From assembly GCA_020722945.1 (NCBI GenBank), contig DYJV01000046.1, forward strand, positions 1 to 17,923: DNA of 17,923 nucleotides, given 5' to 3'. Below are positions 3,536 through 14,336 of the stretch, piece by piece; the stretch's first letter is position 1; each line of letters starts with the position of its first letter. The position numbers and the translations under genes are program-made. The stretch comes from Candidatus Methylomirabilis sp. Lineage in GTDB: Bacteria > DYJV01. Below the pieces are notes generated by a model. That model was given only the letters and a program-made list of their open reading frames with translations. It had not been told where the DNA came from and made no database searches.

Positions 3536-4597
3536 ATGATGAAGAGATTAATTGAGAAGAAAATATTAAATAATCAGAGAATATCTGTTGAGGAGGGGGT
3601 ATTTCTATTTAAAAATTTTGATATAGTAGAATTAGGTAAGCTTGCCTCTCTCAAGATAGATAATAAAGTATATTTTAATATAAACAAGCATATCAATCCT
3701 ACTAATCTATGTGTCAATAGGTGCAAATTCTGTGCATTTTCAAGAAGTAAGGGGGAAGATGGAGGTTACGAATACTCTATAGATAAAATTCTTGATTATA
3801 CCAAAGATTCAGAATATCATGGGACAACAGAATTTCATATTGTTGGTGGACTTCACCCAGACAAACCATTTTCATACTATACTGATTTGATAAAAGCTCT
3901 CAAAAATAGACACCCTAATATCACAGTCAAAGCTTATACTGCTGTTGAGATAGATTATTATAGTAAAATCTCAAATATGCCTATTGAGGGTGTTTTTGAA
4001 AAATTATTAGCTGCAGGTCTTGATTTAATGCCGGGTGGTGGAGCTGAAATATTAAAAGAGAGTGTAAGGAGTAAAATTTGTCCTGAAAAGATATCTGCCC
4101 AAAGATGGCTTGATATTATAGAAACAGCACATAAATTTGGTATAAAAACCAACTGCACTATGCTTTATGGACATATAGAGAGTATTGAGGATAGGTTGTT
4201 TCACCTAAATAAGTTAAGAGAGCTTCAAGATAAAACAGGTGGTTTCCTTGCATTTATTCCTCTATCTTTTCACGCCAAAAATACTGATATAAAGAAATAT
4301 CCTTACACAACAGGTGTAGATGACCTTAAAACAATTGCTGTAAGCAGATTATTTCTTGACAATATCAAAAATATAAAAGCTTATTGGGTTATGCTTACCG
4401 AGAAAATAGCTCAAGTTGCTCTCTCTTTTGGAGCAAATGACCTTGATGGGACAGTTGTCAAAGAGAAAATTACCCACTTTGCAGAGGCATTATCAAAGGA
4501 GGGTTTGAGTATAGATGAAATAATTTATCTGATTAAAAAAGCTGATAAAATACCAGTAGAGAGGGATTCTTTTTACAATGAGCTCAAATATTATTAA
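3536..4597 (+). CDS. mqnE: Aminofutalosine synthase (radical SAM)
   Basis: MqnE joins 3-[(1-carboxyvinyl)oxy]benzoate to the SAM-derived 5'-deoxyadenosyl group, giving aminofutalosine in the futalosine route to menaquinone. The 353-residue protein carries the radical-SAM cluster motif CxxxCxxC (C59, C63, C66) in the family-typical context HINPTNLCVNRCKFCAF. It also has EFHIVGGLHPD and the MPGGGAEI motif shared with MqnC. Two adjacent ATGs (3536, 3539) are possible; AAAGG at 3527-3531 suits either. The last 20 bases overlap the start of mqnC, indicating a translationally coupled pair. Other mqn genes are not in this window. The family member most easily confused is MqnC, but the HINPTN and HIVGGLHP signatures favour MqnE. 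Confidence 0.93.
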   Translation: MMKRLIEKKILNNQRISVEEGVFLFKNFDIVELGKLASLKIDNKVYFNINKHINPTNLCVNRCKFCAFSRSKGEDGGYEYSIDKILDYTKDSEYHGTTEFHIVGGLHPDKPFSYYTDLIKALKNRHPNITVKAYTAVEIDYYSKISNMPIEGVFEKLLAAGLDLMPGGGAEILKESVRSKICPEKISAQRWLDIIETAHKFGIKTNCTMLYGHIESIEDRLFHLNKLRELQDKTGGFLAFIPLSFHAKNTDIKKYPYTTGVDDLKTIAVSRLFLDNIKNIKAYWVMLTEKIAQVALSFGANDLDGTVVKEKITHFAEALSKEGLSIDEIIYLIKKADKIPVERDSFYNELKYY

Positions 4598-5624
4598 TAG
4601 GAAAGAAGCTTTATCACTCCTTGAAAATGAAAGTTTGCTTACACTTGGTGAGATGGCAAATGATATCAAGAAGAAGATACACAATAACTCTAAACTAATT
4701 ACTTTTGTTATTGACAGAAATATCAATTACACAAATATATGTAAGTGTAAATGTAAGTTCTGTGCATTTTACAGAGAAGAGGATAGCAAAGATGCTTATC
4801 TTTTGGATAAGGAGCAGATTTTCCAGAAGATAGAGGAAACGATTGATCTTCAAGGGACTCAGATACTTATACAAGGGGGGCTGCACCCTTTACTAAAGAT
4901 TAATTACTTTACAGATCTTTTCTCCTCAATAAAGAATCGTTACAATATAAATATACATGGGCTTTCTGCCCCTGAAATATGGCATATTGCTCAAAATTCA
5001 GGAATATCAGTTGAAGATACATTAAAAAGATTAAAAGATAGTGGGCTTGGTTCTATCCCCGGTGGTGGTGCTGAAATACTTGTTGATAAAGTAAGAAGTC
5101 AGATCAGTCCCAACAAAATATCTTGGGATAAATGGGCATACGTTATCAAAACAGCCCACAAACTTGGTATCAGAACAAGTGCAACAATGATGTTTGGGAC
5201 AGTTGAAAATAGTGAAGATATTGTAGAACATTTGTTTAGGGTGAGGGAGATTCAGGAAGAGAGTGGTGGATTTACTGCATTTATATGTTGGAGTTTCCAA
5301 CCGTTAAATACAGAGTTGCATAAGAGTGTAAATTACTCATCAACAGGGGTTGATTTTCTTAAAATATTAGCATTAAGCAGGATAGTTCTTAATAATATCA
5401 AAAATATACAAACTTCTTGGGTTACTCAAGGCTCCAAAATTGCCCAAACTTCCCTCTTCTTTGGAGCTAACGATTTTGGAAGCACCATGATAGAGGAGAA
5501 TGTTGTTGCAGCAGCAGGTGTAAATTTTAGAATGTCGATTGATGATATAGTTTATCTGATAAAGGATGCCGGATTTGAGCCGGCACAGAGGGATACTTTC
5601 TATAATATAGTAAGAAAATTATAA
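4578..5624 (+). CDS. mqnC: Cyclic dehypoxanthinyl futalosine synthase (radical SAM)
   Basis: MqnC cyclises dehypoxanthine futalosine, a later step of the same futalosine pathway. The 348-residue protein has the radical-SAM cysteines C55, C59 and C62 in the signature NINYTNIC.CKCKFCAFYR, plus the motifs ILIQGGLHP and IPGGGAEI and a C-terminal AGFEPAQRDTFY that is characteristic of MqnC. An extra cysteine (C57) lies between the cluster ligands. The ATG at 4578 lies inside the end of mqnE. It is about one third identical in pattern to its neighbour, reflecting shared ancestry of the two enzymes. The gene ends 43 bases before the convergent mutS stop codon, and I see no clear terminator hairpin in that gap. 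Confidence 0.94.
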   Translation: MSSNIINRKEALSLLENESLLTLGEMANDIKKKIHNNSKLITFVIDRNINYTNICKCKCKFCAFYREEDSKDAYLLDKEQIFQKIEETIDLQGTQILIQGGLHPLLKINYFTDLFSSIKNRYNINIHGLSAPEIWHIAQNSGISVEDTLKRLKDSGLGSIPGGGAEILVDKVRSQISPNKISWDKWAYVIKTAHKLGIRTSATMMFGTVENSEDIVEHLFRVREIQEESGGFTAFICWSFQPLNTELHKSVNYSSTGVDFLKILALSRIVLNNIKNIQTSWVTQGSKIAQTSLFFGANDFGSTMIEENVVAAAGVNFRMSIDDIVYLIKDAGFEPAQRDTFYNIVRKL

Positions 5625-11094: not shown

Positions 11095-11715
11095 ATGGAA
11101 CAATTTACATTGACAGCTAAATTAAGAGAAACAGTATCCAAAAAAGATAGAAAAATATTTAAAAAAGATGGTATGATCCCAGCTATATTCTATGGTAAGC
11201 ATATAGAGAAGAATTTGCCTATATTTGTTGATTCTTTGGCTGTAAAAAAGATCATAAAAAAAGAGGGTGGCACCAATGCTTTTATAAAGCTCGAAATTGC
11301 AGCTGGAGTTAATAAATCAAATTATTTATCAATAATCAAGGATATTCAATTTGATTCAATTTATAGAATTCCTATTCATGTTGATTTTTACGCTGTTGAA
11401 GAGAAAGAGGAGCTTGAAGCAAATGTTCCGGTAGTTGCAAAAGGGACATCTATTGGTGTAAAAAATGGTGGGATACTTCAGATTTTAAGAAAAGAGCTGA
11501 CAGTAAGATGTTTGCCTCAGTATCTTCCTGAAAAGATAGAAATTGATGTTACCAATCTTGATTTTCACGATTCTGTTCATATAGAGGCTCTATCTCTACC
11601 AAATGTAAAATTTCTATTCGACTCTAATTTTACAGTTCTTACTATTGCATCTCCTACAAAGGAAACTGAGGCTAAAGTAGAGACTACAGAAGAGACTACA
11701 GGAGAGAATGCTTAA
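11095..11715 (+). CDS. rplY: Large ribosomal subunit protein bL25, CTC form
   Basis: The 206-residue protein is the long (CTC/TL5) form of bL25, which binds 5S rRNA. The N-terminal 5S-binding domain includes KDGMIPAIFYG and ends near residue 93 (PIHVDFYAV). A C-terminal beta domain of about 90 residues follows (VPVVAKGTSIGVKNGGIL... ), then an acidic Thr/Glu-rich tail. GGAG before the ATG at 11095 gives a good ribosome site. The stop codon directly abuts the GTG start of pth, so the two are co-translated. Confidence 0.95.
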   Translation: MEQFTLTAKLRETVSKKDRKIFKKDGMIPAIFYGKHIEKNLPIFVDSLAVKKIIKKEGGTNAFIKLEIAAGVNKSNYLSIIKDIQFDSIYRIPIHVDFYAVEEKEELEANVPVVAKGTSIGVKNGGILQILRKELTVRCLPQYLPEKIEIDVTNLDFHDSVHIEALSLPNVKFLFDSNFTVLTIASPTKETEAKVETTEETTGENA

Positions 11716-12317
11716 GTGGAGTTGGTTGATTATTCACTAATTGTAGGACTTGGAAATATTGGCAGCAGATATTCAGGAACAAGGCACAATGTTGGATTTT
11801 ATATTTTGGATAGTTTGACAGAGAGGTTTCAATTTCAATTTTCTAAAAAAAAAATTATAGGGTAGCTGAAAAGGTTTTTATACACAAAGATATCAAAAAA
11901 AAATTATATTTTCTCTACCCAGATACCTATATGAACCTCTCAGGTGAAGCAGTTGTTCAGTTTATAAAAGATTATAATTTAAATGATTTTTCAAATGAAA
12001 AGCTGATAGTAATTCACGACGATTTGGATTCAGATTTTGGAAAGATAAAAATTAAATTAAGCAGTGGTGACGGTGGGCACAATGGAATTAAATCCATGAT
12101 ATCTGCACTCAAATCTAATAATTTTTACAGATTAAAATTTGGTATTGGCAGACCTTTACTAAAAGAAGAAATTGTAAATTATGTTTTACAACCTTTCACT
12201 GTTCAAGAGCAGATTGTTCTTAAAAACCTTTCACACATAATAGAAAAGATAATTATTATTTTAGCGTTAACCAACAATATTAACATAGTTAGTAAATTTT
12301 TATGTTCTTCAAAATAA
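11716..12317 (+). pseudogene. pth: Peptidyl-tRNA hydrolase, frame broken at an A10 run
   Basis: Pth frees tRNA from prematurely released peptidyl-tRNA and is normally essential. The GTG at 11716 abuts the rplY stop, with AGGAGAG upstream. The first frame reads [18 protein letters not shown] (N14, catalytic H24), then runs into ten A residues at 11845-11854 and stops at 11863-11865. One extra A, or a -1 shift, joins it to the downstream frame [13 protein letters not shown]..., with HDD (about 101-103), GGHNG and the usual C-terminus. This gives about 200 residues, normal for Pth. All visible catalytic motifs are kept and there is no other damage, so decay is unlikely. A sequencing indel, or slippage on A10 restoring the frame, fits better. 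ATG 11931 alone would give a truncated 128-residue product. Confidence 0.88.
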
Positions 12318-12338: not shown

Positions 12339-14336
12339 ATGGGCTTAGCGTCTATTTCGTGGCTTTTTGGTGGTTTAGGATTAGTTTTTGCTTTATACCT
12401 TTATAGGTATGTATCAAGTCAGCCTGCTGGTAATGAGAAGATGACAGAGATAGCTGATATGATACATGAAGGAGCATTAGCTTTTCTCAGAAAAGAGTAT
12501 CAGATTCTTGCAGGTTTTGTTGTAATTGTTACAATACTACTTGGTGTATTTATCAATATTCAGACAGCAATATCTTATTTTTTTGGTGCTGGAGCTTCCA
12601 TGTTTGCAGGGTTCTGTGGAATGACAGCAGCTACAAAAGCAAATGTAAGGACATCTCAGGCAGCTGCAACAGATGGCCAGTCAAAAGCACTCAATATAGC
12701 TTTCAATGGTGGTGCTGTTATGGGTATGGCTGTTGCAGGAATTGGTTTGTTGGGAGTAGGTTTTTTCTATATGATATGGGGTAAAGACCCTGTAACTGCT
12801 CAATACCTCAATGGTTTCGGTATGGGTGCAAGTTCGGTTGCTCTGTTTTCAAGAGTTGGTGGTGGTATATATACAAAAGCTGCTGATGTTGGAGCAGACC
12901 TTGTTGGAAAAGTAGAAGCAGGGATTCCTGAAGATGACCCACGTAACCCTGGTGTTATCGCTGATAATGTTGGTGATAATGTTGGTGATGTTGCTGGTTT
13001 GGGTGCAGATATATTTGAATCTTATGTAAACTCTATAATTGCTTCAATCGCTATTGCAGCTACTACTACTCTTCCTCTTCTTGCTGGCAATAGACTTGAA
13101 TATATGGCATACCCTTTGGTAATTGTTTTACTCGGAATAATTGCTTCAATGGCATCTATATATGCGATGAAAATATTTGAAAAAGGTGATCCTGCAGAGG
13201 CATTAAGATACAGCACATTTGCAGCAGCAGGAGTTTTCCTCGTTTTAGCTTTCTTTGCATGCTTATTTATGAAGCTAAATCTTGGAGCTTTCTGGTCTGT
13301 TCTTTTTGGGTGTATATCTGGTATCTTGATAGGTCTTATCACCGAATACTATACAGCAGCAGCTCCAGTCATGAGAATAGCTGAAGCAAGCAAAACAGGC
13401 CCTGCTACAACTGTAATTACAGGTATAGCTGTTGGTATGGAGAGTGTTGTTATACCTATAATTTTTATATGTATAGCAATTTTTGGCTCCTACAAATTAG
13501 TGGGTTTATACGGTATAGGTTTAGCAGCAGTTGGTATGCTTGCAACAGTTGGTGTTGTTATGTCAGTTGATGCTTACGGTCCTATTGCTGATAATGCAGG
13601 TGGAATATCAGAGATGGCAGGACTTGGGCATGAAGTTAGAGCTATTACAGACAAGCTTGATGCTCTTGGTAATACTACAGCTGCTATTGGAAAAGGTTTT
13701 GCTATCGGTTCTGCTGCACTTACAGCTTTGGCTCTCTTTTCTGCTTATGGATCAGCCGTAGGTATAACAAGTATAGATTTGATGAATCCTATGGTTGTTA
13801 TAGGACTCCTGCTTGGTGGTAGTATCCCATGTATTGTTGCGGCTTTTACTATGACATCAGTTGGTAAAGCTGCTTTTGCGATGATAGAAGAAATTAGGAG
13901 ACAATTCAGAGAAATCCCAGGTTTACTTGAAGGGACAGGCAAGCCTGATCCTGCAACTTGTGTTGCAATAAGCACAGCAGCAGCCCTCAGAGAGATGATT
14001 TTACCGGGACTTGTTGCAGTTATATTTCCTGTTGCAGTTGGTCTTGTTCTTGGAGCTGAAGCATTAGGTGGAGCTCTTGCAGGGGCTACTCTTTCAGGTG
14101 TTATCCTTGCTCTTTTTATGGCTAATGCTGGTGGTGCATGGGATAATGCTAAAAAAGCTATAGAAAAAGGTGATCTTGAAGGTGAGAAGAAAGGTTCAGA
14201 TGCTCACAAAGCTGCAGTAGTTGGAGATACAGTTGGTGATCCATTCAAAGATACCTCTGGTCCAGCTATGAATATCCTTATCAAATTGATGAGTATTGTG
14301 GCATTGGTTACTGCACCTCTTTTTGTTGTTTCTTAA
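12339..14336 (+). CDS. hppA: Membrane-bound ion-pumping pyrophosphatase, K+-dependent type
   Basis: This integral membrane enzyme hydrolyses pyrophosphate and pumps H+ or Na+ across the inner membrane. The 665-residue protein has many hydrophobic helices. It carries the family signature [20 protein letters not shown] (D183 region), [19 protein letters not shown] and the C-terminal [20 protein letters not shown]. The motif [10 protein letters not shown] (from G444) has Ala448 and Gly451, where K+-independent pumps have Lys and Thr, so this is the K+-dependent subfamily. Whether it moves Na+ or H+ cannot be decided here. A strong AGGAGG site (12327-12332) precedes the ATG. It follows pth by 21 bases and is closed by an intrinsic terminator. 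Confidence 0.96.

Follow-up and report, generated by a model that had tools for sequence, protein, structure and literature searches.

Peptidyl-tRNA hydrolase (Pth) has been found encoded across a broken frame before. The genome paper of Blochmannia vafer describes four genes, pth being one of them, whose frames are broken within poly(A)/poly(T) tracts only in this species; these genes show no accelerated evolution, and transcriptional slippage was proposed as a possible correction (PMC3017870). A literature search for other published pth frameshifts gave only the Blochmannia case. Buchnera and Blochmannia likewise have constrained genes with a frameshift in a long A tract, corrected by slippage, and the corrected transcripts amount to 12–50% in endosymbiont genes (PMC5009743). 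Slippage of RNA polymerase is documented for the A9 run of dnaX in Thermus thermophilus (cited in PMC1088944), and a large share of bacterial genomes show evident selection against runs of A or T at nine nucleotides (PMC1088944). Programmed frameshifting is known for magnesium-chelatase and chlD genes (PMC3711429, PMC9227772), those of the chlD type being proven cases with up to 63% frameshifting in test constructs (PMC3711429).

The locus described here lies in the window, the whole 17,923-nucleotide stretch analysed, which is one contig (C78) of a 2.51-Mb assembly in 184 contigs, 98% complete with 5.8% contamination. The pth locus and its two neighbors are on the forward strand. The 5′ part of pth (nt 11716–11865) opens with a GTG immediately after the stop codon of rplY, holds the Asn and His motifs GLGN and RHNVGF, and in the zero frame reads ...FSKKKIIG before a TAG at nt 11863–11865, giving 49 amino acids. 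The 3′ part (nt 11847–12317) lies in the −1 frame, reads ...YPDTYMNLSGEAV...IHDDLD...GGHNG...SSK with the motifs YMNLSG, HDD and GGHNG, and stops at TAA, nt 12315–12317. By direct reading, ten consecutive A's (A10, nt 11845–11854) mark the place where the two frames overlap, and to pass from the 5′ to the 3′ part the reading must shift by −1 or gain one nucleotide. Inside this run the slippery heptamer A_AAA_AAA stands in the right frame at nt 11847–11853. As the first-pass annotation had noticed, a run of nine A's (nt 11895–11903) lies in frame within the 3′ part (DIKKKLY). Its claim that pth carries no other lesion also holds, since no stop or frame break besides A10 was found in the gene. 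Both neighbors are intact: rplY for ribosomal protein L25/CTC (nt 11095–11715), named from sequence and position, lies directly upstream, and the gene of a membrane-bound H+-pyrophosphatase (nt 12339–14336), named from sequence, directly downstream. Elsewhere in the window, at nt 3536–5624, two adjoining radical-SAM genes resemble, by eye, those of the futalosine menaquinone pathway (MqnE/MqnC type).

The identity of the split gene is clear from profile matches, which bear out the earlier reading of a pth interrupted at A10 with intact motifs on both sides. Pfam PF01195 (Pept_tRNA_hydro) matches the 5′ part over profile positions 1–39 (E 5e-13) and the 3′ part over positions 48–167 (E 3.5e-37). 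When the two are joined, the match extends over positions 1–167 of 183 (E 3e-54), with 184 bits against a curated cut-off of 27. The joined protein aligns with solved peptidyl-tRNA hydrolases over residues 7–170, and the catalytic Asn/His/Asn/Asp/Asn motifs GLGN, RHN, YMN, HDD and GGHNG, distributed over the two frames, match those of the solved enzymes. Judged by sequence, both halves together are one full-length Pth, and it is not plausible that two Pth halves would overlap exactly at A10 by chance.

One other genome of the phylum, belonging to the same order and a different family, served for comparison; the first-pass annotation had proposed comparing A-run length among close relatives, and the comparison was made with this one genome. 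Its pth is unbroken, stands in the same gene order (after rplY and before an apparent pyrophosphatase gene start), and has no A run at the junction, where it reads F-E-E-N-N-Y. Just past A10 the residues of the −1 frame (NYRVAEK...FI.K) already match the relative's Pth (NYKYSERYFISKG), while those of the zero frame (KKKIIG, stop) do not. The frame change is therefore placed in or right at A10. With one extra A read, the joined Pth aligns gaplessly across the junction with that of the relative, to which it is 48% identical; the nearest Pth in a search of contigs of other genomes is 47% identical. Since the relative's pth is unbroken and without the A run, the break belongs to this one genome or to its assembly, and a conserved programmed site in pth was rejected.

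No second Pth-family gene was found in the assembly by profile or by DNA search, and a Pth match was present in 59 of the 60 other genomes searched. With a sole pth in an assembly that is 98% complete, the cell must make its Pth from the locus at nt 11716–12317. The first-pass annotation had allowed for true decay in case an intact pth existed elsewhere, and this provision falls with the search. Loss of pth with another enzyme taking over would accord with the frame being broken as read. Nevertheless, the lack of a second gene (the search being of the Pth family) makes simple decay unlikely, and the rest of pth is without lesion and retains the catalytic motifs on both sides of A10. We consider decay extremely improbable.

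The most informative result of the analysis is an internal control provided by a second gene of the same genome. A chlD-like gene for a putative cobaltochelatase (L051:649–2597, contig C167, minus strand) is also split at a run of ten A's. Its upstream part covers positions 1–339 of TIGR02442 and ends ...FSEKKK followed by TAG; its downstream part covers positions 384–640 and starts inside A10. The counterpart in the comparison genome (L093:1462–3410) has exactly ten A's, both halves, and a shift in the same direction. As the A10 and the −1 relation are common to both genomes of the order, the chlD split is probably a conserved programmed frameshift, and it very probably represents real recoding. 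The lineage thus probably passes from frame 0 to frame −1 at A10, the very change that pth needs, which makes slippage at the A10 of pth credible. The RNA downstream of the chlD A10 runs folds weakly, and the greater part of the effect may thus lie with the run of A's itself. The likeness of chlD to pth extends to the equal length of the run and the direction of the shift. In contrast to pth, the chlD site is conserved in both genomes of the order, and chlD frameshifting is thought to yield two useful products, whereas the short product of pth is probably useless.

The behavior of long A/T runs throughout the assembly bears on whether the A10 of pth has been counted correctly. A search of both strands for exact matches to ten A's yielded 20 overlapping matches at 15 places, against 119 runs of exactly nine. 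The rarity of runs of ten or longer suggests selection or bias against them. In selected stretches of the assembly, 86 distinct A/T runs of at least nine with enough flanking sequence were examined. Nearly half (42) lie deep in open reading frames, 37 of them A9 and 5 of ten or more. Only pth and the chlD-like gene are split at a run among the 86; a third candidate, L113, was rejected as an intergenic stretch. The 42 in-frame runs, together with the equal length of the chlD A10 in an independent genome, indicate that miscounts are not frequent. A general homopolymer error was not seen among the 86 runs, in which the A10 sample is a handful of sites.

Two explanations carry most of the weight, and they are the pair that the first-pass annotation had named, slippage or miscount. 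We lean, at a little below an even chance, to a real A10 frameshift in the single-copy pth with full-length Pth supplied by slippage, and we infer both the reality of the run and the supply. A recent, unprogrammed indel in the A tract would have left the run one base too short and placed the halves of pth in different frames, and full-length Pth would then come from a minority of expression events. This could happen by RNA polymerase adding one A while copying A10, or by the ribosome slipping back one base at A_AAA_AAA (nt 11847–11853). The remaining events would stop at the TAG at nt 11863, leaving a fragment of 49 residues that is probably useless. Alternatively, the ten A's may be a miscount of sequencing, assembly or population consensus, the real run being in frame and pth normal. 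This has a probability close to that of rescue, and we take the two as about equally likely, our weights being judgement and not computation. The gene is single-copy here and encodes an enzyme essential in well-studied bacteria, it has no lesion other than A10, and long A runs are the commonest places for miscounts, all of which favors a normal gene. Furthermore, the frameshift is a singleton, and the GeneTack study expects singleton frameshifts validated by similarity to be mostly sequencing errors (PMC3711429); this speaks for a miscount and against rescue. So does the nature of the assembly, which resembles a fragmented, slightly contaminated metagenome bin (184 contigs, 5.8% contamination and two overlapping identical contigs). 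The lack of conservation of the A run in the relative also weighs against rescue. Against a miscount stand the 42 other long runs deep in genes and in frame, although the A10 sample among them is small, and the chlD A10, which an independent genome shows at equal length.

A programmed, regulated frameshift, in which the slippery heptamer and a downstream stem tune the level of Pth, would find its elements in the in-frame A_AAA_AAA and in a possible weak stem that begins 6 nt later, a suitable spacing, GGGUAG/CUACCC (nt 11860–11865 with 11915–11920). The stem gives z −2.65 in a hand-picked 65-nt stretch and z −1.36 in a slightly wider one, and among all 65-nt stretches in the window, 18% give a fold as good or better. 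Its energy is thus not unusual for the window and its z depends on the stretch chosen; ribosomal stimulation is unproven and not relied on here, and a strong downstream stimulator is doubtful, since the best stem stood out only in the hand-picked stretch. No Shine-Dalgarno-like motif stands at the usual distance, a GAGG lying about 20 nt upstream, which is too far, and the relative lacks the A run. A programmed site in pth is thus very improbable. The first-pass annotation had gone on to suggest that slippage could couple peptidyl-tRNA recycling to transcription conditions; this finds no support, the relative having no A run and the downstream RNA structure being ordinary.

If slippage rescue is real, the closest parallel is the pth of Blochmannia vafer, where a long A/T tract of the same gene holds one indel and the remainder is intact. 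One mark of slippage-rescued frameshifts of the endosymbiont type is an otherwise intact gene whose A/T tract of at least nine carries a single indel, and pth displays it. The setting differs, since Blochmannia vafer has the reduced genome of an insect endosymbiont with several such genes, whereas here the genome is of 2.5 Mb and the runs examined split no genes other than pth and chlD. In Buchnera and Blochmannia mixed transcripts were measured, while the present case was read from DNA. The dnaX of Thermus thermophilus shares the long A run and possibly the slipping RNA polymerase; however, its standard frame gives the full length and slippage the short form, while in pth it is the full-length product that would depend on slippage. 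A real frameshift in pth would extend slippage rescue, for an essential gene, from reduced endosymbiont genomes to a genome of normal size, with a warning against labelling such genes pseudogenes. We tentatively suggest that slippage at A10 is efficient enough here for a genome of normal size to tolerate an A10 frameshift even in an essential gene present in one copy, because A10 slippage has been kept in chlD across two families; this is possible but somewhat doubtful. Should the frameshift not be real, it serves as an instructive case of miscounting in an assembly. Real or miscounted, the pth case presents no new mechanism.

The two overlapping contigs of the assembly (C147 and C148; L047 and L048) are of near-equal length, identical over the 2670 bases compared, and oppositely oriented. 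Their rhomboid-like and endonuclease-like genes are of foreign appearance, Bacteroidota-like by eye, and the two are probably contamination and a duplicated contig.
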